Made by a program: the position numbers and the translations under genes
The notes under the pieces: model-generated
Told to the model about the DNA's origin: nothing
Seen by the model: only the letters and a program-made list of their open reading frames with translations
Databases searched by the model: none
Shown here: one piece after another, positions 10,777 to 29,654 of the stretch
Numbering within the stretch: the stretch's first letter is position 1
How the letters are laid out: each line of letters starts with the position of its first letter
From: Candidatus Pelagibacter sp. RS40
Lineage (GTDB): Bacteria > Pseudomonadota > Alphaproteobacteria > Pelagibacterales > Pelagibacteraceae
Assembly: GCF_002101295.1 (NCBI RefSeq)
Contig: NZ_CP020778.1
Coordinates: 1,157,001 to 1,221,000 of the forward strand
Reading direction: 5' to 3'
Length of the DNA: 64,000 bases

Positions 10777-11295
10777 ATGGCTAGAGTTACAGTAGAAGAT
10801 TGTATAGATAAAGTAGAAAGTCCATATGAGTTAGTGCTAGTAGCAAAAGAGAGAGCTACTCAACTAAATTCTGGGATAGAACCTACTTTAGAAAGAGACA
10901 ATGATAAGAATACAGTTATCGCCTTAAGAGAGATTGCCGAAGAAACAATCAAAGTTCCAGATTTAACTGAAGCTGCAGTATATAAATTAAGAAAACATGT
11001 AGAACAAGTTGATGATACAGGAGAAGAAGATGAAGACATAGGTGATGATTTTGAAAATTTATATAAAGGCGAAATATCTAAAAGCGGTGTTCCAATATTA
11101 CCTTCTAAAAGAGCTAGAAAAATTCCAGAAAAAATTCAAGTATCAAAAGATGATTTAGAAGAATTACAAAATTCAACTGAAGCACCAACTTCAGATCCTA
11201 TCGATACAAATGAAGAGAGTGGTGATGCTTCTTTAGAGGAAATGCAAGAAGAAGAAACTCTAGCAAACGAGCAAGACCCAAATAATCAAGAATAA
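10777..11295 (+). CDS. rpoZ: RNA polymerase omega subunit with long acidic C-terminal tail
   Basis: Omega, the small subunit that chaperones beta-prime into RNA polymerase. The first ~75 residues match the family: [23 protein letters not shown], then ERATQL and [17 protein letters not shown]. At 172 aa it is about twice the length of E. coli omega (91 aa). Residues from about 85 on are very rich in Glu/Asp and probably disordered, with one basic patch ([14 protein letters not shown]). It ends just before a hairpin shared with convergent proX. The tail may be a lineage feature; its role is unknown. Confidence 0.93.
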
Positions 11296-11356: not shown

Positions 11357-12361
11357 TTATTTTGGTATCCAGTTTTTCCATTTACCTGGATTAGCGTCTT
11401 TCCATTCTTTAACTACTTCTTTAAGATCTCTGTTCTTTTGTTTTACTTCAACTAACATTACAGCTTGATCTGCATTATCGAACTTCATTTTAGTGAAGAA
11501 CTCAGCAGCTTTAGCGTGTTCTGGTTTTGCAAATGTAGCAGGGTTACCGTAGTTGAACGTGTAGTCTTTAGCCCAACCAGTTGCAGGCCATGCTGCAGTT
11601 CCACAATCTTTCCAGTTGTTCGCCTCTGTAAAAGAGTCACAAGTTTTATGAGCAGGAAGTTGAACACCTACCATGTCGTATGCTCCAAAAAACCAATGTG
11701 GCTCCCAAAGATATAATAAGAATGGTTCTTTTCTTTCATAAGCAGCAACTGCTTCTGCAATCGCAGCAGCTTCTGTTCCAAGCTCATCAGCTTGGAAATC
11801 AATTCCTAAAAGATCTAATCTTTTTTGGTCATGACAGTTCCAACCAGCTACAGGACAACCAATTAGTCTTCCTTTGCCACCAGTTTCGATTGTTGCAAAT
11901 TTATCTTTATGTTTATTTAAATCTTTCCAAGTTTTAATTCCCAGACTTTCAGCTGCATATCTCGGGATGTAGTAATCAGAAAGTCCAATTATTCCTGTTG
12001 TACCTAAAAGTTTTACACTTCCATCACCTTCGTAATTAAACATTGTTTGACCATCATAAATAAGTGGTCCTTTCATCATTACTGTGTCAGCCTCAGCATA
12101 ACTTGGCCAACTTTCGCATGCAAAGTCAATTTCTCCAGCAGCAATTGCTTCCCATAAACCTGTTCCAGATGGGAATACAACTCTTTTGACTTTGTATCCT
12201 AGCTCTTCCTCTAACATACTTACAGCAACTTGACATGTAATCTCTCCACCTGTCCAGTCAGCGACAGCTGCAGTCAATCTTTTAGCATTAGCTTGAGTTA
12301 AACCTCCAACTAAAAGAACAAAAGATAATATCAAGGCTGAAATTGTTTTAGATAATTTCAT
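11357..12361 (-). CDS. proX: Betaine-type ABC transporter substrate-binding protein (ProX/TmoX-like)
   Basis: Periplasmic binding protein of the OpuAC/ProX family, 334 aa, with a signal peptide ending TQANA|K (residue 26). Aromatic residues suited to a cation-pi box for quaternary ammonium or sulfonium ligands are present: Trp36 in VADWTGG, Trp in CESWPSYAE, and two Trp in LYLWEPHWFFGAYD. A good ribosome site (GAGGAGA) precedes the ATG. It is separated by 165 bp from the demethylase gene upstream on the same strand, so it may have its own promoter. Glycine betaine, DMSP, TMAO or related compounds are all possible ligands. Confidence 0.88.
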   Translation of the reverse strand: MKLSKTISALILSFVLLVGGLTQANAKRLTAAVADWTGGEITCQVAVSMLEEELGYKVKRVVFPSGTGLWEAIAAGEIDFACESWPSYAEADTVMMKGPLIYDGQTMFNYEGDGSVKLLGTTGIIGLSDYYIPRYAAESLGIKTWKDLNKHKDKFATIETGGKGRLIGCPVAGWNCHDQKRLDLLGIDFQADELGTEAAAIAEAVAAYERKEPFLLYLWEPHWFFGAYDMVGVQLPAHKTCDSFTEANNWKDCGTAAWPATGWAKDYTFNYGNPATFAKPEHAKAAEFFTKMKFDNADQAVMLVEVKQKNRDLKEVVKEWKDANPGKWKNWIPK

Positions 12362-12526
12362 TATTTCTCCTCTATTTAATTAATTAAAGTTATATTTTAG
12401 TTCAAAAATTATAGTTATGTAAACTTATAAAATTGAACCATTAATAAGTTATAATGTTATATTATTTGGTAATTTTAGGCATAAAAAGCGTGGTCAATTG
12501 TTTCAATAACTAAATTATTATTAAAT
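12362..12526. other. Longest intergenic gap in the window
   Basis: This 165-bp AT-rich interval separates the demethylase stop from the proX start. It contains the proX ribosome site (complement of 12364-12371) and a loose inverted repeat AACTTAT/ATAAGTT (12422-12428 and 12444-12450). No convincing riboswitch, ORF or T-run terminator is seen. It probably carries the proX promoter. Confidence 0.45.
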
Positions 12527-13702
12527 TTAGGTTCTCTTCGGAATAGATCTATCCAGGCCTTTAACTATTTTTTTATCATGATCAAAAAATGGTAATTTAA
12601 CTACATTACAGTCATGAATTTTACCATTAGGTAATTTTAACTTTAACTTTTTACCAGGCCATTCTTTAGGTTCGTAAAATCTTACATATCCAATTCCAAG
12701 TTTTAACGTAGGTGAGGGGACACCCGCAGTTATATGACCTATAATATTATCACCTTCCATAACTTTACTTCCTGAGGTAGGAGTATCAGTTGCACAAGTA
12801 ACTCCAAATAAACATGTACCTTTATTTTTTTTGGATAACGCTTCTCTTCCAATAAAATCACCTTTATCCATATTTACAAAAAAACCTAAACCAGCTTCAA
12901 AGGGTGTCATTGATGTATCTATATCAGTTAAATTTCCAAATATTCCTCCTTCAATTCTTCTTATAGTCATTGCACGAGAGGACGATAGCTCCATCCCATA
13001 AGGTTTTCCACATTCAATAAGATGATCCCAAAGAGCTAAGTGATCTGTTTTATAACCATCAGAATAAATTTCAAACCCTAGTTCGTTGGTAAATCCAGTT
13101 CTTGAAACATATAGATCTTGCCCTCCAAGATTAAAAAAACCTGATCTAAAATAAGGCATGCTTTCATCAATACCTCCTTTTGATGCTTTTTTCATAATAT
13201 CAATAGATGCAGGACCTTGAATTTGTAGAACTCTTGACTTTGGATCTGATATTTTCACATCAAAATTTTCACTGTGTGCTAATAACCAATCTTCAAATGG
13301 ACCGTCAGCTTGTACATACCAAAATTTATTATCACTAAATTTGAAAATAACTCCATCCATAAAAATTCCACCTTGCGGGGTACAGGCTAATGAGTAATAA
13401 CCTCTACCTTCTTTAATAGATGAAATTTTTCTTGTTAATATTTTTTCTAAAAAAGGAATTGCATCCTTACCTGATATCTCTACTGGTTTTTCTGGAACAT
13501 CAAAAATTAATGCTTTCTGTCTTAGGAGCCAATATTTTTCAATCGCATCTTCTCCTATTGATATTGGAAAATATCTTCCTGCATAAACTCCACGAACCAT
13601 CTTAGGACTATCTGTTCTTTCAATGTAAGGAGATTCTTCAAATCTTCTTGCACTAATTTTAATAGTTTTGTTAAGATCAGATTCTTCTTGTAGATTTCCC
13701 AA
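12527..13702 (-). CDS. DmdA/GcvT-like tetrahydrofolate-dependent demethylase
   Basis: A 391-aa protein of the aminomethyltransferase (GcvT) superfamily, which moves a methyl or methylene group to tetrahydrofolate. Compared from memory with SAR11 DMSP demethylase DmdA it is colinear: SPY near the N-terminus, VEISGKDA near 78, FDVKISDP and LQIQGPAS near 150-165, and RRIEGG followed by FEAGLGFFVNMDKGDFIG. The Asp in GGIFMDG and the Glu in ELGFEIY match conserved GcvT positions. It is not DmdA itself. The start is TTG, preceded by AGAGAG, 10 bp after the molybdoenzyme stop; the next in-frame ATG is inside the fold. DMSP-, betaine- or amine-derived substrates are possible. Confidence 0.82.
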   Translation of the reverse strand: MGNLQEESDLNKTIKISARRFEESPYIERTDSPKMVRGVYAGRYFPISIGEDAIEKYWLLRQKALIFDVPEKPVEISGKDAIPFLEKILTRKISSIKEGRGYYSLACTPQGGIFMDGVIFKFSDNKFWYVQADGPFEDWLLAHSENFDVKISDPKSRVLQIQGPASIDIMKKASKGGIDESMPYFRSGFFNLGGQDLYVSRTGFTNELGFEIYSDGYKTDHLALWDHLIECGKPYGMELSSSRAMTIRRIEGGIFGNLTDIDTSMTPFEAGLGFFVNMDKGDFIGREALSKKNKGTCLFGVTCATDTPTSGSKVMEGDNIIGHITAGVPSPTLKLGIGYVRFYEPKEWPGKKLKLKLPNGKIHDCNVVKLPFFDHDKKIVKGLDRSIPKRT

Positions 13703-13712
13703 TTTAATCTCT

Positions 13713-16043
13713 CTAATTTGTTTTTGCGTTAGATCTTATAATTGTAGGTGGATCAAAGGCAGTTAATTTTGGGACTTTATCGTTATATTTTTCTATCTCA
13801 ATAAGACAAGAATGTGCAATAGGACCTTGTCCAAGTTTTGATGTACCTTTATCTGGCGTTAACACATTTGGGTTACCGTGCTTACACATACTTCCATATT
13901 GGCTAGGATTTTCTGGATCATACCATGCACCAGTACTCATTTGTACCACTCCTTGCATTACATCATCAGTGATTTTTATTCCAGCTAAGCAAGATCCTCT
14001 CTCATTAAACATTCTAACTACATCTCCATTTTTTAAATTACGTTTGTTTGCATCCAAAGGATTAATTTCCAGAGGCTCTCTTTCATTTATTTTGAATGAC
14101 TTACTATATTTTCCGTGATCCATTTGGCTGTGTAGTTTATTTTTCGGTTGATTTGATATTAAGTGAAGAGGATATTTTTTATTTACTTTGCCCAGCCATT
14201 CACAAGGCTCAAACCATACAGGATGTCCTGGACAATCATCATAATTAAAATCAGCCACGGTTTTTGAAAATATTTCAATTTTACCACTAGGTGTATCAAG
14301 TGGATTTTTTTTAGGATCTTCTCTGAAATCTTTCAACATTATTGTTGGTTCTGTTGGATCATTAATTTTAAACCATTTTTGCTCTCTAAATTTTTCATAT
14401 TTAGGTATTTCAATATTTGCTGCTGCCGCCCTATCAAATGTTTGTTTATAAATCCATTCTTGCCAATCATCTTGGCTTTTTCCTTCAGTAAATTTTTCCT
14501 CAATACCCATTTTTTTTGCAATATTTGCAAATATTTCAAAATCATTTTTAGATTGCCCATATGGTTCAATTATTTTATCCATAGATACAACAAATGGATC
14601 TCTAGGCGTCATCATAATGTCAGTCCTCTCTAACGGAGTAGTGCAAGGTAAAACAATATCAGATCTTTTTGCAAGTGTATTCCAACACCATTCGTTTGAA
14701 ATTATCGTATCTGGTTTTTCCCAAGCTTTTATTAGTCTATTTAAATCTTGATGATGATGAAATGGATTTCCACCTGCCCAGTAAACTATCTTGGTATCAG
14801 GATACACATATGACTTTCCATTAAAATCAAATTTTTTTCCTGGATTAAGCAAAAGATCACTAATTCTTGCAACTGGTATAAAATTTTCTATTTCATTTTC
14901 TGCTTGTGGAAATGCTGCTCCTGGTAAAACTTTGAATTGACCACCAATAAAATTTGTAGCACTATAACCAAAACCAAACCCACCTCCTGGTAATCCTATT
15001 TGACCAATCATAGAGGCAAGCATAATAGCCATCCAAAAAGGTTGTTCACCGTGATCTTGTCTAGTTAAAGACCAGCTCACTGAAATCATACTTCTTTTTT
15101 TTGAAATTTTAGTAGCTATCTCTTTAATTTTAGATACTGAAATATTACAAATTGCTGAAGCCCATTCGGCACTTTTTTCAATACCGTCATTTTTTCCTAA
15201 AAGGTAGGGTAAAAATTTATCAAAGCCCTCCGTATATTTATTTAAAAAATCAGTATCGCAAAGTCCTTCTGAGTAAATTGTGTGTGCCAGTCCTAACATT
15301 AAAGCAGTATCTGTATTTGGTCTTGCTGCAATCCATTCACCATTTACCTCGTTGATTAAATCAGATTTAAGTGGACTAATATTTATAAACTCTATGCCTG
15401 ATTTTGCAGACTCAATCAAATTTTCTTTTTGATAGTGATGACCTGTTCCACCTTGTGAGATTTGTCCATTTTTTATTGGAACTCCCCCAAAACATATAAA
15501 AATTTCTGTATTTTTTTTTATAGACTCCCAACTAGTACATGTATCAAGATAAGCACGATAACTCCCAAGAATATGTGGAACCATTGCTTCTGCAGCAGCA
15601 AAACTATATGTAAATTTTGATCTAGTATATCCACCAACACAATTTAAAAATCTATGTAATTGGCTTTGGGCATGATGAAATCTGCCTGCACTGGCCCAAC
15701 CATATGAACCGCCAAATATTGAGGAGTTTCCATGTTTTTCTTTTACTCTATTAATTTCGTTTGCTACAAGTTCCTCTGCTTTATCCCAACTAACTGCAAT
15801 AAATGGTTCAACACCTCTTAAATTATTGTTTGCCCCTGGACCTCTTTCAAGCCAACTTTTTCTAACCATTGGCTTATCGATACGTGTTGGTCCGTCTAAA
15901 ACATCAACTATTCCTTGTGCGATAGGTGATGGATCTTTATCATGCTCCCAACCAACAAGTTCCTCAACTTTACCATTTTTAACTTTAGCTCTATAAGTAC
16001 CCCAATGGTTACTTGTTAAAGGCAGACCTTTATCTTTGGTCAT
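13713..16043 (-). CDS. Cytoplasmic molybdopterin S-/N-oxide reductase (BisC/TorZ/DMSO reductase type)
   Basis: A 776-aa molybdopterin-guanine-dinucleotide oxidoreductase of the DMSO reductase family, subgroup without an N-terminal Fe-S cluster (no CxxC motif). GGSYGWASAGRFHHAQSQLHR near residue 110-130 carries the Ser in the YGWxSxG motif that ligates molybdenum in DMSO, TMAO and biotin-sulfoxide reductases. Other cofactor stretches are MIGQIGLPGGGFGFGY, IVYWAGGNPFHHHQDL and NPNVLTPDKGTSKLGQGPIAHSC. There is no twin-arginine signal peptide, so it is cytoplasmic like BisC. It lies between the permease (1 bp away) and the demethylase (10 bp away) in one operon. The real acceptor is unknown; a sulfoxide, sulfoxonium or amine N-oxide is expected. 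Confidence 0.87.
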   Translation of the reverse strand: MTKDKGLPLTSNHWGTYRAKVKNGKVEELVGWEHDKDPSPIAQGIVDVLDGPTRIDKPMVRKSWLERGPGANNNLRGVEPFIAVSWDKAEELVANEINRVKEKHGNSSIFGGSYGWASAGRFHHAQSQLHRFLNCVGGYTRSKFTYSFAAAEAMVPHILGSYRAYLDTCTSWESIKKNTEIFICFGGVPIKNGQISQGGTGHHYQKENLIESAKSGIEFINISPLKSDLINEVNGEWIAARPNTDTALMLGLAHTIYSEGLCDTDFLNKYTEGFDKFLPYLLGKNDGIEKSAEWASAICNISVSKIKEIATKISKKRSMISVSWSLTRQDHGEQPFWMAIMLASMIGQIGLPGGGFGFGYSATNFIGGQFKVLPGAAFPQAENEIENFIPVARISDLLLNPGKKFDFNGKSYVYPDTKIVYWAGGNPFHHHQDLNRLIKAWEKPDTIISNEWCWNTLAKRSDIVLPCTTPLERTDIMMTPRDPFVVSMDKIIEPYGQSKNDFEIFANIAKKMGIEEKFTEGKSQDDWQEWIYKQTFDRAAAANIEIPKYEKFREQKWFKINDPTEPTIMLKDFREDPKKNPLDTPSGKIEIFSKTVADFNYDDCPGHPVWFEPCEWLGKVNKKYPLHLISNQPKNKLHSQMDHGKYSKSFKINEREPLEINPLDANKRNLKNGDVVRMFNERGSCLAGIKITDDVMQGVVQMSTGAWYDPENPSQYGSMCKHGNPNVLTPDKGTSKLGQGPIAHSCLIEIEKYNDKVPKLTAFDPPTIIRSNAKTN

Positions 16044-16044
16044 C

Positions 16045-18171
16045 CTAATTTGCTTCTAATCCGAGTGCTTGTCTTTGTTTTTTAGTCCAAGCTAAAGTTA
16101 TACGATCAATAATTATAGCAAGAAGAACTATACCGATCCCTGCAGCTAATCCTCTTCCAGTATCAGACCTAGCTAATCCATTGAATACTTCTAAACCTAA
16201 TCCCTTACCACCAATTAAAGGAGTTACAATTTGCATTGCAAATGCCATTACAACTGTTTGATTAAATCCAATAACCAAGCTTGGAACGGCTAGCGGAAAT
16301 TTAATTTTTTGTAAAGTTTGAAGAAGCGTTCCTCCAAAAGATCTTGATACCTCAGAGTATGTACCTGATACTTGTGTTAAACCAAGTGCAGTTAGCCTTA
16401 TTATTGGAGGAATTGAATAAATAACAGTTGCAAGTACAGCTGAAACTATTCCTCCACCAAAAAACATTAAAACTGGTATCAGATAACAAAAATAAGGAAG
16501 TGTTTGCATTGCGTCTAGCACAACATTTAAAACTTCCTTAAACCTTTGGTTATAAGATGCGATAATTCCAAGTGGAACACCAATTGCAAAACATAAGACA
16601 ACAGAAACTAAAACTGATGAAAGAGTTATCATTGATTGTGGCCAAATTCCACAAGCACCAATAAATAGAAGAAGCAAAGCAGTTATGATTGCAAATCTTA
16701 AATTAACTGTAAAATAGCCAATTGCAACAAATACACTCATAGTATACCACCATGGTATATGTGTTAAGAATGTATCAAGTGGTCTTAACAAATTAAGATA
16801 TACAAAAGCTCTTAAGCCTTTTGTAAATGCTATAAAGCCTGGATTTATAGTTAATGACTTAACTCCATCTGCAATAGGCTGCCTGATTGATAATTTCCAT
16901 TCTTCTGGGAAAGTTCCAATTGAAATTAGATAACTGTCAACCAACGAAATAATTATAAAGACTATAAAAGATGGTATGACATAATATCTTCTGCTTAAAA
17001 ATTCTCTTAAATCTTCAGCATTCTCTTTATTAAAAATTGAAAAGATATATTTAACAAAGGTAGCTATTAAATTAGTAACACTCTTACAGATTAAATTTAT
17101 TGCAAAATGTAAATATAAAATAGGTTTTTCAATTAATCTTGCAACTTGAAACTTTTCCCAACTTTGAGGTAGAAGATAAAAAGGCTGTACATCTGATGGC
17201 AGAATATCTTTTTGTTTTGTTAAAGACATACTAAATCTATCAAACATTATAGCCATAAATAATATGCACAAACCACCTTCCATTGCCCAACCAACATCGA
17301 GGTTTCTAATAGCTAACCATACTTGACCACCAATACCTTCTGCACCAATAAAGCAAGCTAAAACAACTAAAGCTAATGCCATCATAATTACCTGGTTAAT
17401 TCCCATCATTATACTTGGTAAAGATAACGGGATTTTTATTTTAAATAGTAGTTGCAATTTACTTGATCCAAATGATGTTGCGGACTCTATTGTATCTTTT
17501 GAAACTTGTCTTATACCAGAATTCGTTAATCTTATTACAGGTGGCATAGCATAAATCATTGTTGCTAAAATTGCAGGAGCACCTCCAATTCCAAAAAAGA
17601 ACAACGCAGGAAATAAATAGACAAAAGCAGGCATTACTTGCATCGTGTCTAGTATTGGTTTCATAAAACCATCAAAGCGATCACTTTGCGAACATAAAAC
17701 ACCAAGAATGACACCAAAGAAAACACAGAGTAAAACGGATAAGCCCATCAGAGCTACAGTCTGAAGTGACTCATCCCACATTCCAACAGCTCCCCAAAAG
17801 TAAATTACAAACAATGAATATAATCCTAACCTTAAGCCACCTGCTATCAGACATGGTAAAAATATTATTGAAGCTACTAAAAGCCATGGAGAATCTATTA
17901 AAAAATCCTCTAAAAAGTAATAACCAGACTTAATGTATCCAGCTATAATTTTTGTCATCCATCTATAATTTTTTTTTAAATAGTCTTCACCATCATTTAC
18001 CCAAGCAGTAAAAGTAAATTCATCAGTTACAACTTTAGGAAGTTTGGAAGGACCTTCACTTTGACTGGATAAAAATAGCGCAACTAAAAATACCAATATT
18101 ATTGCAACATAGGTGATAACACTTTTGGAGCTGCCTGATTTATCAACAATTACAGTTTGTTCAGAAGACAT
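16045..18171 (-). CDS. proW: Tandem-duplicated betaine ABC permease (ProW-ProW fusion)
   Basis: A 708-aa inner-membrane protein with two complete ProW-type permease domains in one chain. The first EAA loop is IESATSFGSSKLQLLFKIKIPLSLPS (about residue 230) and the second is YSEVSRSFGGTLLQTLQKIKFPLAVPS (about 605). Each half also repeats an LD(T/A)MQ segment (DTMQVMPAFVYLFP and DAMQTLPYFCYLIP). ProW of E. coli is about 354 aa and works as a homodimer, so this is a covalent dimer with diverged halves. It starts 71 bp from the divergent ATPase and ends 1 bp before the molybdoenzyme gene. Confidence 0.9.
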   Translation of the reverse strand: MSSEQTVIVDKSGSSKSVITYVAIILVFLVALFLSSQSEGPSKLPKVVTDEFTFTAWVNDGEDYLKKNYRWMTKIIAGYIKSGYYFLEDFLIDSPWLLVASIIFLPCLIAGGLRLGLYSLFVIYFWGAVGMWDESLQTVALMGLSVLLCVFFGVILGVLCSQSDRFDGFMKPILDTMQVMPAFVYLFPALFFFGIGGAPAILATMIYAMPPVIRLTNSGIRQVSKDTIESATSFGSSKLQLLFKIKIPLSLPSIMMGINQVIMMALALVVLACFIGAEGIGGQVWLAIRNLDVGWAMEGGLCILFMAIMFDRFSMSLTKQKDILPSDVQPFYLLPQSWEKFQVARLIEKPILYLHFAINLICKSVTNLIATFVKYIFSIFNKENAEDLREFLSRRYYVIPSFIVFIIISLVDSYLISIGTFPEEWKLSIRQPIADGVKSLTINPGFIAFTKGLRAFVYLNLLRPLDTFLTHIPWWYTMSVFVAIGYFTVNLRFAIITALLLLFIGACGIWPQSMITLSSVLVSVVLCFAIGVPLGIIASYNQRFKEVLNVVLDAMQTLPYFCYLIPVLMFFGGGIVSAVLATVIYSIPPIIRLTALGLTQVSGTYSEVSRSFGGTLLQTLQKIKFPLAVPSLVIGFNQTVVMAFAMQIVTPLIGGKGLGLEVFNGLARSDTGRGLAAGIGIVLLAIIIDRITLAWTKKQRQALGLEAN

Positions 18172-18194
18172 AAAATATTTAATTTAAATAAATA

Positions 18195-18215
18195 ATTTTA
18201 CTTTTAAAGTAAAAT
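18195..18215. promoter_or_regulatory. Perfect 21-bp palindrome in the proW/proV divergent promoter region
   Basis: ATTTTACTTT (18195-18204) and AAAGTAAAAT (18206-18215) are perfect reverse complements around a single central T. The element lies in the 71-bp gap between the divergent permease and ATPase genes. This geometry suits a dimeric repressor or activator controlling both transcripts. The regulator is not identified, and no regulator gene is encoded nearby. Confidence 0.55.
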
Positions 18216-18242
18216 ATTGTCTATTTCACAATTAGTAATTAA

Positions 18243-19289
18243 ATGGCTGTTGAACAAAAAATCACTTGCTCAAATATCTGGAAATTATTCGGACCAGATG
18301 AAAAAAGAATAATCAAAAATTTAGACAAAAACCTATCTATAAAAGAGGTTCAAGAAAAAACAGGACATGTTGTTGCTGTTAAAGATGTAAGTTTTTCAAT
18401 TGTTAAAGGTGAGACTTTTGTTGTCATGGGCCTTTCAGGAAGTGGAAAATCTACTTTAGTTAGATGTATCTCAAGATTAATAGAACCCACGTCTGGAACT
18501 GTTAAAATGGATGATACCGATGTAACAAAAATGAGTAATAGTGAACTTTTAGATCTTAGAAGAAATAAAATGAGTATGGTATTCCAACATTTTGGATTAT
18601 TCCCGCACCGAACAGTTATTGAAAATATTGGATATGGTTTGGAAATTAGAGGAAGTAAAAAACAAGACAGATTAGATAAGTCAATGGAAGTATTGAAAAT
18701 GGTAGGATTAGAAGGTTGGCACAATAACTACCCAAGAGAGTTATCTGGTGGAATGCAACAAAGAGTGGGTTTGGCTAGAGCACTTGCTGTAGATCCTGAA
18801 ATTCTAATTTTTGACGAACCATTTTCAGCTTTAGATCCACTAATAAGAAGAGAGATGCAGGATGAACTACTTAAAATTCAAGACAAACTACAAAAAACTA
18901 TGGTTTTTATTACACACGATTTTTTAGAGGCAATTAAAATGGGAGATCATATCGCAATAATGAAAGACGGAGAAGTTTCACAAGTTGGAACACCCGAGGA
19001 AATAGTTGCAAATCCTATAGACCAATACGTTAAAGATTTTTGTGAAGATGTTCCAAAGTATAAAGTTTTAAGTGCAGGAAAAGTAATGAGAAAAGATTGT
19101 TGCGATGATACTAAAAAACTTTATTCATCTAAAGCAGACTGCATTCCTGATAATTCTAAAATTGAAACTTTGATAGATAAACTTGTTGATACCGATAAAA
19201 AATTTCCAGTTATTTGCTCTGAAACTGGAGACTTGCTAGGTGAAATTGACCGTTCTATTGTGATGAAATCAATGAGATCTGCTAGTTAA
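18243..19289 (+). CDS. proV: Betaine-type ABC transporter ATPase (ProV/OpuAA)
   Basis: ABC ATPase of the quaternary-amine uptake family, 348 aa. It has the ProV-specific N-terminal extension (IWKLFGPDEKRI), Walker A GLSGSGKST near 63, signature ELSGGMQQRVGLARAL near 166, Walker B ILIFDEPFSALDPL, and the switch His in VFITHDFLEA. After about residue 260 a short, degenerate CBS-like region remains (IPDNSKIETLIDKLVDTDKKFPVI), where E. coli ProV (400 aa) has two CBS domains. It is divergent from the fused permease and should energise that importer. No ribosome site is visible. Confidence 0.92.
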   Translation: MAVEQKITCSNIWKLFGPDEKRIIKNLDKNLSIKEVQEKTGHVVAVKDVSFSIVKGETFVVMGLSGSGKSTLVRCISRLIEPTSGTVKMDDTDVTKMSNSELLDLRRNKMSMVFQHFGLFPHRTVIENIGYGLEIRGSKKQDRLDKSMEVLKMVGLEGWHNNYPRELSGGMQQRVGLARALAVDPEILIFDEPFSALDPLIRREMQDELLKIQDKLQKTMVFITHDFLEAIKMGDHIAIMKDGEVSQVGTPEEIVANPIDQYVKDFCEDVPKYKVLSAGKVMRKDCCDDTKKLYSSKADCIPDNSKIETLIDKLVDTDKKFPVICSETGDLLGEIDRSIVMKSMRSAS

Positions 19290-20256: not shown

Positions 20257-21447
20257 ATGAGTAACTTTAAACTAAATGAATCTGATATCTTATCAAATCA
20301 AGATTGGACTTTCCCAACCAATATTGCGTACGGAGCCGGACGTTTAAAAGAAATTGGAACAATTTGTAATAACTTAAATATAAAAAATCCCTTGATAGTA
20401 ACTGACAAGGGAAGTCCAAAGTTGCCATTTATTTCGAATTTACAAAGTTATTTGTCTGATTCTAATGTAAAATCTGATTTATTTTTCGATATATCCCCTA
20501 ATCCAAGAGAGGATGAAGTTTCAGTTGGTTGCAAAAAATTTAAAGATGGAAATCATGATGCAATCATAGCTATAGGTGGTGGAAGTGCTATGGATGGAGG
20601 TAAATTAATTTGTTTAACAGCAAATAATGATGTTCCACTCAGAAATTTTGAGTTTGAGTTAACTCCTCCAATAATAAGTAAAGATAACCCATTTCCAAAA
20701 ATTATAACTATTCCTACAACAGCAGGAACAGGAGCAGAAACAGAAATTACAGCTATGGTAACGTATTTAAAAGAGGGAATGAAATTTTGCATGTGGCACC
20801 CTGATGTGAGACCTTCATTAGCATTAATTGATCCAGAATTAACAATAGGACTACCCGCTAATCTAACAGCATGGACAGGTGTAGATGCATTAATTCATGC
20901 AATTGAAGGATACTGCGTTCCAGGATTTAATCCTCTGTGTGATGGAGCAGCATTAGAAGGTCTATCATTGATATCCAAATCACTAGTAACTGCCGTAGAA
21001 CAACCAGATAGTATTTTAGCAAGAGGTGGAATGCATGTTGGATCTTGTTTAGCAGGAATATCATTTTTAAAAGGATTAGGTAATGTACATTCTATATCTC
21101 ACGTGGTTGGTGCTGAGTACAATACGCACCATGGTTTAACTAATGCAATAGTTTTACCCGTAGTTTTACGTTTCAATTTACCTGGTATGGAGGAAAAAGT
21201 TCAAAGAATGTCTGAAGCAATGCAATATAAAGATCATTCAGTTGATGCATTCATTAAAAATATGGAAGATTTGTTAGATAGAGTTAAAATCCCTAAAAGC
21301 TTAAGTGAATTAAATGTTCCCGAGGACAGTGCAGCAAGAATTGCAGAGAAAGCAATGAAAGATCAAGCGTATGGCCAAAACCCAAAGAAAGTCTCTTTTG
21401 AAGAAATGAAAGAAATGGTTTTACAAAGTATAAAAAAAGCTCGTTAA
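20257..21447 (+). CDS. Iron-containing alcohol dehydrogenase
   Basis: A 396-aa group III (Fe-dependent) alcohol dehydrogenase. Seen: NAD-binding GGGSAMDGGK near 107, IPTTAGTGAETEITAM near 155, and the metal site built from WTGVDALIHAIEGY (Asp and His near 212-216) plus HSISHVVGAEYNTHHG (two His near 280-295). It begins a plus-strand group with the amidase only 6 bp downstream, then a carrier, a methyltransferase-family protein and a CoA lyase. Likely job: oxidising an alcohol or reducing an aldehyde released from an imported compound. The specific substrate cannot be read. Confidence 0.9.
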   Translation: MSNFKLNESDILSNQDWTFPTNIAYGAGRLKEIGTICNNLNIKNPLIVTDKGSPKLPFISNLQSYLSDSNVKSDLFFDISPNPREDEVSVGCKKFKDGNHDAIIAIGGGSAMDGGKLICLTANNDVPLRNFEFELTPPIISKDNPFPKIITIPTTAGTGAETEITAMVTYLKEGMKFCMWHPDVRPSLALIDPELTIGLPANLTAWTGVDALIHAIEGYCVPGFNPLCDGAALEGLSLISKSLVTAVEQPDSILARGGMHVGSCLAGISFLKGLGNVHSISHVVGAEYNTHHGLTNAIVLPVVLRFNLPGMEEKVQRMSEAMQYKDHSVDAFIKNMEDLLDRVKIPKSLSELNVPEDSAARIAEKAMKDQAYGQNPKKVSFEEMKEMVLQSIKKAR

Positions 21448-23762: not shown

Positions 23763-24755
23763 ATGCTTTTCAAAGAAAAGCTAAAATCAAAAAATAAAAT
23801 ATTTTTAGATGGAGGGAACGGTTCTGAAATAGCAAAACTTGGCGGTGACATGAGCCCTGCATTTTCTGCATTAGCAACTTTAACATCACCAGATATTGTA
23901 ATTAAAGTTCATGAAAATTTTATTAATGCTGGTTGTGATATTATTACCGCAAATACATTTGCAACTAACAGACATAATTTGGAAAGTTTAAACAAAGGTG
24001 ATCAAGTACATAAATTTATCTCAGACTCAGTTAAACTTTCTAGAAAAGCGATATCAAATACTGGAAAAGAAAATAAAATTGCAGTAGCGGGTAGCCTATC
24101 AAACTTTTTTCCTCTAAAGGAAAATGAGTTTGTTCCAAATCCAGAATTTGTACCAACCTTTAAAAAAGAGGAAGAAAATTACAAAGAAGCTGCAAAAATT
24201 TTAAAAGAATCTGGAGCAGATTTATTGGTTCTAGAAATGCTTTTGGATGTAGACCACTCTAAAATTTTATTAAGTGCAGCTCTCGAAACTGGTTTACCAG
24301 TATGGGTTGGATTGAGTTGTTGCGATAGTAAATTTGACAATTCCGTTATTGGAAGAAATTTTAGAGCAGAGAAAGAAAAATCACTGATTTATGATGAGAA
24401 TAAGTATAAAGACCAACCTAAATACTTACCTGAAGATAAAATAATTTTACTAGATGATATAATAAAATCACTTACGAATTTAGGAGGTGATGTTTATGGA
24501 ATAATGCACACTTGGTTTCAAGATAGCATTGGTGGTTTAAAAATATTGAAGAATAATTGGAAAGGACCAATCATGTTTTATCCTGAAATACATAAATTTG
24601 ACACTAATACACATAAAGCAATAATAACTATGACAGAGGAAGAATTTTCAAACTCAATTTTAGAATTAATAGATGATCAAATTCAAATTGTTGGGGGCTG
24701 TTGTGGAGTTAACGACAAGCATTTAAAAAGACTTATACAATCTATATCTGAGTAA
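23763..24755 (+). CDS. Homocysteine S-methyltransferase family protein (first copy)
   Basis: A 330-aa zinc-dependent TIM-barrel protein of the homocysteine S-methyltransferase/BHMT family. Seen: FLDGGNGSEIAKLGG near 14-28, HENFINAGCDIITANTFATNRHNL near 52-75, GLSCCDS near 180 and the zinc motif VGGCCGVNDKHLKRL near 310. Known reaction: methyl transfer from a methylated onium donor such as S-methylmethionine or betaine to homocysteine. It has a charged insert near 195-230 (AEKEKSLIYDENKYKD) absent from the second copy at 26915-27832. It sits directly downstream of an EamA carrier; the donor is unknown. Confidence 0.85.
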   Translation: MLFKEKLKSKNKIFLDGGNGSEIAKLGGDMSPAFSALATLTSPDIVIKVHENFINAGCDIITANTFATNRHNLESLNKGDQVHKFISDSVKLSRKAISNTGKENKIAVAGSLSNFFPLKENEFVPNPEFVPTFKKEEENYKEAAKILKESGADLLVLEMLLDVDHSKILLSAALETGLPVWVGLSCCDSKFDNSVIGRNFRAEKEKSLIYDENKYKDQPKYLPEDKIILLDDIIKSLTNLGGDVYGIMHTWFQDSIGGLKILKNNWKGPIMFYPEIHKFDTNTHKAIITMTEEEFSNSILELIDDQIQIVGGCCGVNDKHLKRLIQSISE

Positions 24756-24873: not shown

Positions 24874-25737
24874 ATGAGTTCAAATAAACTAAGAGTACGA
24901 AGAAGCTTTATATTTACACCAGGTTTAAAACCAGAGATGTTTCCAAAAGCAATCGAGTCTGGGGCCGACATGGTTTGTATAGAATTAGAGGATGGTATAG
25001 CGCTTAAGGATAAGAATGATGCAAGAAATAACACACTTAACGCTTTAAAAATGCTCAAGATTAAAGAAGATGTAGAACTGGTTGTAAGAGTTAATTGTCA
25101 AAGAACAAAACATGGATTATTAGATTTAGAGGCCTTTGCCTCAAGTAAAATAAACATCGGTGCAATAATGCTTCCCAAAGTAAAAACACCAGATGAAATA
25201 AAATTTATCGATGATCTGCTTACAGATTGTAATTTAGATACAGACCTTCATGTAATAATGGAAACGAACGAGGCTTTAGAATGTATTTATGACATTGCCC
25301 ATGCAAGCAAAAGAACGGTGGCATTGTATTTTGGAGGTGTTGATATGGCAGCTGAGCTTAGATGTGAGCATAAATGGGAAAATTTAGTATACGCAAGATC
25401 AAAATTAGTTCATGCAGGCGCAAGTATTGGGGTTGATGTAATAGATGTTCCATACTTAGATTTAGAAAATATGGATGGAATGAAAAAAGAGGCAGAGCTT
25501 GCAAAAAATCTTGGTTTTACAGGCAAAGGCTCTATCCATCCTAAACAGATAGGAATTTTAAATGAGGTTTTTACACCTTCAAAAGAAGAAATTAGTCATG
25601 CAAAAAAAATTGTAGATCAATTTAACGAGTCAAATACAGGCTTGGTTGTAATTGATGGCAAACTTATAGAAAAACCTGTTTTAAGAGAAATGCAAAGAAA
25701 AATATTAATTGCAGAAAAAATAAACAAAAATTATTAA
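24874..25737 (+). CDS. HpcH/HpaI-type CoA ester lyase (CitE / malyl-CoA lyase-like)
   Basis: A 287-aa TIM-barrel lyase of the CitE family, splitting 3-hydroxyacyl-CoA thioesters such as malyl-, methylmalyl- or citramalyl-CoA. Seen: RRSFIFTPGLKPEMFPKAIESGADMVCIELEDGI (entry to the barrel, CoA-binding Arg and metal-site Glu), IMLPKVKTPDEI near 95, and GSIHPKQIGILNEVF near 227, the C-terminal CoA signature. The citrate lyase alpha and gamma subunits are absent, so a free-standing CoA lyase is more likely. It abuts the convergent serine hydrolase with no gap. It could feed glyoxylate, acetyl-CoA or pyruvate into central metabolism. Confidence 0.87.
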   Translation: MSSNKLRVRRSFIFTPGLKPEMFPKAIESGADMVCIELEDGIALKDKNDARNNTLNALKMLKIKEDVELVVRVNCQRTKHGLLDLEAFASSKINIGAIMLPKVKTPDEIKFIDDLLTDCNLDTDLHVIMETNEALECIYDIAHASKRTVALYFGGVDMAAELRCEHKWENLVYARSKLVHAGASIGVDVIDVPYLDLENMDGMKKEAELAKNLGFTGKGSIHPKQIGILNEVFTPSKEEISHAKKIVDQFNESNTGLVVIDGKLIEKPVLREMQRKILIAEKINKNY

Positions 25738-26914: not shown

Positions 26915-27832
26915 TTATTTTAAAACTGAGATTGCACTTATTTTATCGGGACCAACTCCACAACATCCACCTATAATCTGAGCTCCATTAGATATCCAAT
27001 TTTTCGCTTCCTCTAAATATTTAGACGGGGATATATCATTAATTAATTTCCAATGAGGTTTTTCAAAGTAACCATTATTTGGATATGCACCTACAATCCC
27101 TTTGTGAACTCTTTTTAAAATTTTAACCGCTTCACCTGTAACTTTGATATCTGAATGTGCAACTAAAATTGGTCCTTCATGCATTTTACTAAATTTAGAT
27201 AGGGAATTTTCTAAAGTATCGTAAAATTTTGCTTTTGAATTAGTTATACTTTCTTGATAGCCGTGCATTAATATATTTTCGTCTTCATTTATTGCACAAG
27301 AAATAGATAGCCAGATAGGTAATTTAACATTTTTTGAGCACTCAATAATATTTTCAACAGTTCTATCCTTTGACGTCATGGCTTCTAAAATGATTAGGTC
27401 TACACCTGCTTCTTTTAAAATTTTTAAATGTTCATTAAAACCAGGTTTAATATCCTCTTCTGATAGTTTATCCCAACTGCCTGAAGTTGAAACTGATCCT
27501 GCAACAGCTATTTCCCTTTTAGAATGGTTAGCAGCCTTTAAAGCTAATTTTACACTTTCATCATTCCAAGCTTTCGTAAATTGATCATATCCGTACTCTT
27601 TCATTGATATCGGTGTAATAGCGTAGGTATTTGAAGTAATGATATCTGCACCAGCATTAATATAATTTTCATGTACTTGAAGCATTTTATCTGGGTCATC
27701 TATTGCACATTTTCCAGCCCACAGATCTTTATCCATCTTTGCGCCTGAACTTTCTAACTCTCCTCCATTTCCACCATCTAAAATAACTACACCATTAGCT
27801 TTTAATTTTTTCTCTACAAGATTGTATGACAT
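26915..27832 (-). CDS. Homocysteine S-methyltransferase family protein (second copy)
   Basis: A 305-aa paralogue of the protein at 23763-24755: VVILDGGNGGELESSGAKM, HENYINAGADIITSNTYAITP, LSISCAIN and the zinc motif IGGCCGVGPDKI. Both carry the Cys residues expected for zinc and homocysteine activation. It starts 3 bp after the VOC gene stop and belongs to a minus-strand operon of CoA-transferase, aldehyde dehydrogenase, VOC, this gene and a serine hydrolase. Two diverged copies within 4 kb suggest two methyl donors, or a role beyond methionine synthesis. Confidence 0.85.
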   Translation of the reverse strand: MSYNLVEKKLKANGVVILDGGNGGELESSGAKMDKDLWAGKCAIDDPDKMLQVHENYINAGADIITSNTYAITPISMKEYGYDQFTKAWNDESVKLALKAANHSKREIAVAGSVSTSGSWDKLSEEDIKPGFNEHLKILKEAGVDLIILEAMTSKDRTVENIIECSKNVKLPIWLSISCAINEDENILMHGYQESITNSKAKFYDTLENSLSKFSKMHEGPILVAHSDIKVTGEAVKILKRVHKGIVGAYPNNGYFEKPHWKLINDISPSKYLEEAKNWISNGAQIIGGCCGVGPDKISAISVLK

Positions 27833-28220: not shown

Positions 28221-29654
28221 TTATTTTGGCCAACCAGTTACAGCTTTAACTTCTAGAAATTCATGTAATCCCCAAACACCACCTTCACGTCCATTTCCAG
28301 ATTGTCTATATCCTCCAAATGGAGCACCAGGGTCTGCACCGTTTCCATTTACATAAATTGTTCCAGCCTTAAGCTTCTTGGCAACTCTTTTTGCTTTTTC
28401 TTTATCCTCAGTTTGTAAATAATTACCTAATCCATACTCAGTTTCATTTACAATTTGAATTGCTTCTTCTTCCGTCTCAAAAGGTATTATAGATAAAACC
28501 GGACCAAATATTTCTTCTTTTGCAATACGCATATCATTTGTTACATCGGTAAAAATAGTTGGTTTAATAAAATAGCCTTTGTTCATTCCGTTAGGTAATT
28601 CCGGTCCACCTGCTGCAAGAGTTGCTCCTTCGTCAATTCCACTTTGAATGAGGTTTATTATTTTATTGTATTGAATTTTAGATACAACAGGACCTATATG
28701 ATCTCCTTTTTTTGAAGCATGGTCGACCTTTATCAAATTTGCTTCTTCGACAGCCTCTTTAACTGCTCTTTCATATATTGATTTTTCAACGAGCATTCTT
28801 GTAGGTGCATCACATGACTGACCTGAGTTACTCATTACGTTTCTGATACCATCTCTCACAGCGTTAGGGTAGGAGTCTGCAAAAACAATATTTCCACCTT
28901 TTCCACCTAATTCTAGGCACACTCTTTTGATTGTATCAGCTCCATTTTTTAAAATTAATTTACCTGCCCTTGTTGATCCTGTGAAAGATACTAAATCAAT
29001 ATCAGGATGTGATGAAATATCCGTTCCAACACCAGCGCCATCCCCATTAACAAGATTAAATACACCCGCTGGAAAGCCTGCTTCATCAATCATTTCCGCA
29101 AACAACATTGCTGACATTGGGGCTATTTCTGAAGGTTTATGAATCATTGTACAACCTGTTGCAAAGGCTGGAACAACTTTTAAAGCTATTTGATTGATTG
29201 GCCAGTTCCATGGAGTAATTAATCCACAAACTCCAATTGGTTCATAACAAATATGATTATTAGACTTTGGTTCAAATTGCTCATCAAACTTAAATTCTTT
29301 TAATCTTTTTATAAAATCTTCAAGATGAGATTGTCCACTTGATGTTTGAACGTCTGTTGCCCAATCCATTGGGGCCCCCATTTCCATAGATATAGCATCA
29401 GCCATCTCTCCATATCTTTTTTTATAAATAGAAAGTAATTTTTCTAATAAATTTAATCTTTCATCCTTTGAACTTTCGCTCCAGCTAATCAAAGCTTTTT
29501 TGGCTGCCGAGACTGCAGCATTAGTATCCTCTGTTGATCCTAATGATATAGTTGCAAACGCTTCCTCTGTTGAAGGATTAATTACCTCATAATCATTTGG
29601 TTTAGTTGGTGAAACCCATTGACCGTTAATATAAAATTTTCTTTTATCTATCAT
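28221..29654 (-). CDS. Aldehyde dehydrogenase
   Basis: A 477-aa NAD(P)-dependent aldehyde dehydrogenase. Seen: ITPWNWPINQIALKVVPA near 140 (cofactor cradle), SFTGSTRAGKLI near 225, catalytic Glu in RVCLELGGKGGNIVFAD near 248, catalytic Cys in SNSGQSCDAPTRMLVE near 282, and EEIFGPVLSIIPF near 383. The length is standard. It follows the CaiB/BaiF CoA-transferase by 22 bp and precedes the VOC gene by 1 bp. Substrate unknown; the setting suggests a small carbonyl from an imported carbon source. Confidence 0.92.
   Translation of the reverse strand: MIDKRKFYINGQWVSPTKPNDYEVINPSTEEAFATISLGSTEDTNAAVSAAKKALISWSESSKDERLNLLEKLLSIYKKRYGEMADAISMEMGAPMDWATDVQTSSGQSHLEDFIKRLKEFKFDEQFEPKSNNHICYEPIGVCGLITPWNWPINQIALKVVPAFATGCTMIHKPSEIAPMSAMLFAEMIDEAGFPAGVFNLVNGDGAGVGTDISSHPDIDLVSFTGSTRAGKLILKNGADTIKRVCLELGGKGGNIVFADSYPNAVRDGIRNVMSNSGQSCDAPTRMLVEKSIYERAVKEAVEEANLIKVDHASKKGDHIGPVVSKIQYNKIINLIQSGIDEGATLAAGGPELPNGMNKGYFIKPTIFTDVTNDMRIAKEEIFGPVLSIIPFETEEEAIQIVNETEYGLGNYLQTEDKEKAKRVAKKLKAGTIYVNGNGADPGAPFGGYRQSGNGREGGVWGLHEFLEVKAVTGWPK

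Follow-up and report, generated by a model that had tools for sequence, protein, structure and literature searches.

A two-gene GcvT-like and BisC-type cassette in an onium-importer locus of Candidatus Pelagibacter sp. RS40

Genes at the locus

The genome of Candidatus Pelagibacter sp. RS40 is a single 1.38 Mb contig, and the 64,000-nucleotide stretch of it analysed here (the window) carries five linked genes in which a betaine-type importer is combined with a molybdenum-dependent S-/N-oxide reductase of the BisC/DorA family and a GcvT-family protein. All five open reading frames (ORFs) were confirmed within positions 11357-19289 (Table 1), and Pfam and NCBIfam agree on their families. Transcription of the minus strand runs from proW through bisC and the GcvT-like gene to proX, and proV is divergent. 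The intergenic gaps are 1 bp (ProW/BisC), 10 bp (BisC/GcvT-like) and 165 bp (GcvT-like/ProX), and AGAGAG precedes the TTG start of the GcvT-like gene. An OpuAC binding protein, a ProW permease and a ProV ATPase together make up an importer of the OpuA/ProU betaine type, in agreement with an earlier reading of this DNA from its sequence alone (the sequence-only reading). An Rfam search of window positions 8-36 kb gave no match, so no RNA regulator was seen there.

Table 1. Genes of the locus and of the proposed wider module, in window coordinates
Feature	Position	Strand	Basis
ProX/OpuAC substrate-binding protein, 334 aa, third OpuAC system of the genome	11357..12361	-	PF04069, 148 bits
GcvT-family tetrahydrofolate (THF)-binding protein, BisC-linked clade, 391 aa, TTG start	12527..13702	-	PF01571 and PF08669
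BisC/DorA-family molybdenum S-/N-oxide reductase, predicted cytoplasmic, 776 aa	13713..16043	-	TIGR00509, 982 bits; Pfam Molybdopterin, Molydop_binding and Molybdopterin_N
ProW-type permease, two fused permease domains, 708 aa	16045..18171	-	Two PF00528 stretches; TIGR03416, 416 bits, above cut-off
ProV-type ATPase, 348 aa, divergent from ProW	18243..19289	+	PF00005; TIGR01186 (proV), 365 bits against a cut-off of 326.6
Iron-containing alcohol dehydrogenase (Fe-ADH)	20257..21447	+	Co-occurs with ProX; operonic with BisC and GcvT-like genes in Roseovarius
HpcH/HpaI-CitE-type C-C lyase, probable module member	24874..25737	+	54-57% identity to citE of Roseovarius loci L151/L153
Aldehyde dehydrogenase (ALDH), possible module member	28221..29654	-	53% identity to ALDH of Roseovarius locus L153

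A cassette between proX and proW

The BisC-type reductase was found in 11 of 397 genomes of the SAR11 order, all belonging to one genus, and the order ProX, GcvT-like, BisC, ProW, ProV is kept in every one of the 11 loci, all of which were fetched. BisC protein identity among these genomes is as low as 77%, and protein identities within the loci fall to 75-78%; the relatives with known names that bear the same block are uncultured Pelagibacteraceae (SAR11). A separate search with the GcvT-like protein returned orthologs in the same 11 genomes and in one other (G224), where ProX follows a copy situated at the end of a contig. The left flank of the block varies, with rpoZ in some loci and unrelated genes in others. 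In the window, rpoZ (omega subunit; 10777-11295, 172 aa) encodes a long acidic C-terminal tail past its domain of about 60 residues.

Of 297 genomes of the order, 97 from two families have a ProX ortholog. In 20 of 20 fetched ProX loci that lack BisC, ProX directly adjoins ProW, with ProV divergent and no insert. Because of this arrangement, the GcvT-like and BisC genes are recognised as a co-inherited two-gene cassette inserted between proX and proW of a pre-existing onium-importer locus; the transporter is older and far commoner than the cassette. Comparison of the window's DNA with two close relatives (L037 and L038) gave 70-82% identity in ProX and 68-81% in ProW/ProV, rising toward the ProV end, against mostly 85-97% in the GcvT-BisC segment and about 90-100% in most flanks. 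Transporter alleles thus appear to recombine independently of the cassette, in a pattern suggesting paired exchange of transporter parts. A recent foreign origin of the cassette was considered and rejected: composition shows no sign of foreign DNA, with third-position GC content (GC3) of 0.18 for BisC and 0.15 for the GcvT-like gene against a window mean of 0.18 +/- 0.03. Many of the cassette-free SAR11 loci L102-L117 carry, to the left of ProX, genes resembling gamma-butyrobetaine dioxygenase and 3-hydroxyacyl/carnitine dehydrogenase, together with beta-keto acid cleavage, short-chain dehydrogenase/reductase (SDR) and second ProV-type genes, an assortment that resembles a pathway for the breakdown of carnitine or butyrobetaine.

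Relatives of the reductase were also sought in a scan of GTDB contigs, which gave at least 80 matches and may miss distant relatives. The full gene set is also present in single-cell genomes from a different alphaproteobacterial family (L147-L150 and L154; also L122 and L123), which we take to be HIMB59-like (it includes G426); in L122 and L123, where the genes were read, the GcvT-like gene is separated from ProX by an SDR gene and a beta-keto acid cleavage gene. In the second family of the SAR11 order, two genomes carry a GcvT-like homolog (55%) at another site, unlinked to BisC. A chance neighbourhood is ruled out by the 11/11 linkage in SAR11 and by the HIMB59-like single-cell genomes, whose BisC is 72% identical, and the linked set noticed in the sequence-only reading is borne out as conserved. 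Further, Roseovarius sp. 2-342 carries BisC, GcvT-like and Fe-ADH genes at two loci. In L153 the order is BetI-type TetR, OpuAC protein, ProV, ProW, BisC, GcvT-like, Fe-ADH, ALDH and CitE-type lyase, with ProW and BisC overlapping by 4 bp; in L151 it is ProW, BisC, a shortened GcvT-like gene, Fe-ADH, CitE-type lyase, SBP56 and ferredoxin. The L153 binding protein is only about 29% identical to the window's ProX, so the cassette has become linked to two distinct onium importers. The GcvT-linked reductases group with L152 in a single clade of the reductase tree (SH-aLRT, an approximate likelihood-ratio support value, of 100). None of the remaining reductase relatives among the matches listed adjoins a GcvT gene in the neighbourhood test, and a sample of 389 genomes of the phylum contained no further GcvT-like member. 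In phage records, the matches listed are of TorA and DmsA type, in Salmonella and E. coli records.

The reductase, the GcvT-like protein and ProX

The reductase matches TIGR00509 across model positions 2-769 of 772, at 982.2 bits, below the curated cut-off of 1017.55. Its molybdenum ligand Ser147 (TYS147FAAAE) aligns with the DYS of BisC, TorZ, TorA and DorA and is invariant in 10 homologs; Tyr114 and Trp116 are also kept, as SYGW in the window protein and its homologs, with E. coli TorA showing a gap at the Tyr. This Tyr/Trp pair separates S-/N-oxide reductases from pure N-oxide reductases and is tied to S-oxide activity (PMC5122715), and by these residues the window protein falls with the S-oxide-capable subgroup (BisC, DorA, MtsZ). 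Neither a signal peptide nor a twin-arginine translocation (Tat) motif was found on the reductase (N-terminus MTKDKGLPLTSNHWG); TorA and TorZ show the RR motif, and E. coli BisC does not. Judged by its sequence the enzyme is cytoplasmic, as the sequence-only reading had it. A homolog of MobA (bis-molybdopterin guanine dinucleotide cofactor) is present in the genome, scoring slightly below its cut-off.

In fold and in these residues the protein is like the BisC/DorA/MtsZ enzymes (E. coli BisC, Rhodobacter DorA, Haemophilus MtsZ), and in the missing Tat motif it is like E. coli BisC. It is, however, only 37-42% identical to BisC, TorZ, TorA and DorA, is without a TorC/TorD-type partner gene, and differs from those four proteins in the motifs YGWASAGRFHHAQSQ, TYSFAAAE and GQISQGGTG, which are largely common to a marine subfamily from Roseovarius, Phaeobacter and Ponticoccus. 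The gene clusters in which this subfamily sits are catabolic, not respiratory. On plasmid p-SCP4 of Ponticoccus alexandrii (L225, 6806-15329) the BisC relative lies inside a methylthioribose/methylthioadenosine salvage operon, a context suggesting reduction of a methylthio sulfoxide; the operon also contains PNP, mtnA, transketolase halves and a RuBisCO-like protein. Plasmid clusters of Phaeobacter inhibens pP66_d (L222, 11218-25797) and L223 hold a GcvT-family protein, an AMP-binding ligase, crotonase, ALDH, a TRAP importer and a BisC relative, resembling DmdA/B/D-type demethylation of dimethylsulfoniopropionate (DMSP) with an S-oxide reductase added. In this Phaeobacter inhibens pP66_d/Tritonibacter cluster (AMT, ALDH, SDR, TRAP, crotonase, AMP-binding, BisC), a related reductase (58%) and a GcvT-family protein (38%) share one catabolic cluster, which differs from the present system in having a TRAP rather than an OpuA-type importer and a GcvT protein from another clade. 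These plasmid clusters were examined in four records, and the association of BisC relatives with methylthio operons is a lead, not a count.

The GcvT-like protein exceeds the cut-offs of both GCV_T (PF01571, 152 bits) and GCV_T_C (PF08669), and the folate-contact residue Glu211 is invariant in the alignment; the two domains and this Glu place it in the GcvT-type folate-binding family. The sequence-only reading had called it a DmdA-like demethylase: the folate-type methyltransferase fold holds, and the DmdA identity does not. Its score against the DmdA equivalog is 164.2 bits (cut-off 410), and the BisC-linked proteins form a clade of their own (support 100/100), with the DmdA pair (100/99) on another branch. 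The best folds are T-protein (1woo), with DmdA (3tfh) at rank 12, for a model with a predicted confidence (pLDDT) of 75 and an unreliable first 50 residues. DmdA contacts DMSP through a Trp, W171 in a published alignment (PMC7487153), which we mapped to W197 of the 3TFH chain, the correspondence of numbering being our own; at this position all 10 BisC-linked sequences have Phe204. Tdm was likewise rejected as an identity, with a match restricted to profile positions 401-762 and 180 bits against 1100. The genome has fourteen GcvT-domain matches, a large share of gene content for C1 transfer.

ProX conserves a cage of four Trp residues (W36/W85/W174/W219) and Tyr217, and its best fold matches are TmoX with trimethylamine N-oxide (TMAO; 4xz6) and DmpX with DMSP (7yle). 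Relative to published pocket residues (PMC8918994, PMC10030565), ProX keeps the four Trp of the TmoX set (Trp cage, Phe106, Glu131, Phe220) but has Ala89, Ser128 and Tyr217 at the other positions, the Glu131/Ser128 pairing being the least certain of those aligned. Of the DmpX set (Trp cage, Thr64, Glu113, Tyr200) it keeps the Trp residues and, as Tyr217, the Tyr that DmpX needs for DMSP, with Gly66 and Ser128 in place of the other two. Neither identity is retained: a true TmoX/Tdm/Tmm locus lies elsewhere (G000, 1036-1055 kb), as does DmpX (L028:17463-18473; E 9e-60 to 7yle). Indeed, the genome already holds TmoXWV, Tdm (1111 bits, cut-off 1100), Tmm (747, cut-off 675), DmpX and two DmdA proteins (521 and 571 bits, cut-off 410). 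It follows from these separate TMAO and DMSP genes that the new module serves something else, or an oxidised form of those compounds.

The system is comparable to both pathways. Like TmoXWV-Tdm-Tmm (Ruegeria pomeroyi, SAR11), it sets an OpuAC protein, a double ProW and a ProV-type ATPase beside a GcvT-domain protein, in keeping with import followed by folate-linked demethylation; it differs in that the GcvT protein is without the N-terminal half of Tdm, an oxide reductase is added, and ProX is 22% identical to TmoX in the fold alignment. With the DmpXWV and DmdA pathway (SAR11, Roseobacter group) it shares an importer with a Trp cage and Tyr, and a GcvT-fold protein expected to pass methyl groups to THF, although that protein is not a DmdA.

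Possible substrates and the wider module

The island of five genes described in the sequence-only reading is correct as far as it goes, but the module is wider. The Fe-ADH belongs to it: within the genus 18 of 18 genomes with Fe-ADH have ProX, compared with 0 of 20 listed genomes without Fe-ADH (Fisher p 3e-11, not corrected for shared ancestry), and the gene is operonic with or adjacent to BisC and GcvT-like genes in Roseovarius L151 and L153. The CitE-type lyase and the ALDH probably belong as well; in Roseovarius citE lies downstream of BisC, GcvT-like and Fe-ADH at both loci, and the L153 ALDH stands between Fe-ADH and citE. The window lyase is RipC-like (252 bits) and the best model for the ALDH is betaine-aldehyde dehydrogenase (422 bits), both below cut-off, and the Fe-ADH reaches the cut-off of no Fe-ADH model. 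Two genes of the homocysteine S-methyltransferase family also lie near the island (23763-24755 and 26915-27832), both below the cut-offs of known types.

Our favoured reading, held with somewhat less than even confidence, is that the cassette within the older importer locus reduces and demethylates an oxidised methyl-sulfur onium compound and passes the methyl group to folate. ProX-ProW-ProV would import a small zwitterionic or cationic onium compound through the aromatic cage; in the cytoplasm an S-oxide form would be deoxygenated by the molybdoenzyme, and one S-methyl group would be transferred to THF by the GcvT-like enzyme. A sulfoxonium might first be reduced to the sulfonium and then demethylated, or demethylation might come first and yield a methyl sulfoxide, whose reduction by BisC would be a classic reaction of such enzymes. 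Methyl-THF would then feed C1 oxidation, and the methylthio residue would enter side-chain oxidation through Fe-ADH and probably the ALDH and CitE-type lyase.

Several observations weigh against this reading. The GcvT-like relatives nearest to the clade stand in TMAO loci of HIMB59-like genomes, pointing toward nitrogen compounds; in L125 (9285-10469) and L126 (9460-10629), such a protein, 47% identical to the window's, lies between Tmm and Tdm. We know of no enzyme of the dimethyl sulfoxide reductase family that reduces a cationic sulfoxonium. Fe-ADH and CitE-type genes are also found near the transporter where the cassette is absent. The SBP56-family protein of L151, from the family of methanethiol oxidases, scores below the MtoX equivalog cut-off (159 < 650); SBP56 is absent from the window's own genome, and the link rests on this one Roseovarius locus. 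Additionally, ProX has identical pocket residues whether or not its locus contains the cassette; binding of an oxide is therefore no requirement, and the importer is unlikely to be specific for one. The proposal that the importer is dedicated to an oxidised onium compound is weakened accordingly, as most importer genomes are without the reductase and methyltransferase and DMSP and TMAO have genes elsewhere; the linked set itself stands.

One alternative, which we regard as unlikely, puts nitrogen in place of sulfur: BisC would reduce an amine N-oxide, either TMAO or one derived from a dimethylamino alcohol or acid, and the GcvT-like protein would capture C1 from the amine or pass it to THF. 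Besides the TMAO-locus relatives, which adjoin Tdm, TmoXWV and Tmm, the structural proximity of ProX to TmoX with TMAO speaks for this, as does the reduction of N-oxides by BisC-family enzymes (PMC5122715). The genome's existing TMAO genes argue against it, as do the Tyr that TorA-type N-oxide reductases lack, the change of TmoX Phe220 to Tyr217 and of Glu131 to Ser128 in ProX, and the want of an oxidase in the cassette. Folate can accept a methyl group directly only from an onium centre, and the tertiary amine left by N-oxide reduction is no direct donor. Sulfur is favoured over nitrogen because a sulfoxonium keeps its donor centre after reduction or yields a methyl sulfoxide after demethylation, and because the Tyr/Trp pair and the presence of SBP56 beside the Roseovarius genes add to this chemical argument; of the two kinds of oxide admitted by the sequence-only reading, the S-oxide is the likelier. 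It is also conceivable, if improbable, that the transporter takes up compounds of the glycine betaine/choline type in general, with Fe-ADH and ALDH acting on an onium alcohol, that the GcvT-like enzyme demethylates a betaine-type product, and that BisC serves as accessory sulfoxide repair (of methionine, biotin or methylthio intermediates) with no single pathway substrate. E. coli BisC is such a repair enzyme, ProX and Fe-ADH co-occur without the cassette, the best ALDH model is betaine-aldehyde dehydrogenase, and L153 adjoins a BetI-type TetR gene and a choline dehydrogenase gene. A free-standing repair enzyme, however, would not need the GcvT-like gene, without which BisC is never found in the sampled SAR11 genomes, always in the same position; nor does the Fe-ADH reach a model cut-off.

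A more specific version of the sulfur reading, slightly less probable than these, is that imported dimethylsulfoxonium propionate (DMSOP) becomes methylthio- or methylsulfinylpropionate and so enters the pathway of DMSP demethylation. This sulfur compound was discovered in the sea only recently; the enzymes that interconvert it with DMSP are described as unidentified (PMC10689795), and whether DmdA can demethylate it has been posed as a question (PMC10686828). The Tyr217 and Trp cage of DmpX type, the presence of two DmdA and DmpX in the genome, and the pairing of a related reductase with AMT, acyl-CoA ligase, crotonase and ALDH genes on Phaeobacter and Tritonibacter plasmids are consistent with this role. 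But ProX is without the Thr64 and Glu113 of DmpX, and the GcvT-like protein is without the DMSP Trp of DmdA; reduction to DMSP would need no extra demethylase with DmdA present, and the link to Fe-ADH hints at a substrate with an alcohol group, which DMSOP does not have.

The system is real, conserved and functionally coherent, and the linked set suggests, though it does not prove, a way in which some SAR11 bacteria could exploit oxidised methyl-sulfur compounds in seawater. Reduced organic sulfur is a requirement of SAR11 cells. A dedicated route for dimethylsulfoxonium compounds, whether DMSOP or a hydroxylated sulfoxonium, in which folate receives a methyl group from the sulfoxonium or sulfonium through a new GcvT-family enzyme and the oxygen is taken off by a new cytoplasmic BisC subfamily, is rather unlikely in our estimation. 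If true, it would provide the first enzymes that bring sulfoxonium sulfur back into the pool of reduced sulfur, and SAR11, HIMB59-like and Roseobacter-group bacteria would carry them as a two-gene cassette. The module offers a concrete, expressible pair of candidate enzymes, along with matched genomes with and without the cassette. Even should the substrate prove different, the module defines two subfamilies linked to onium importers, one of GcvT and one of BisC.

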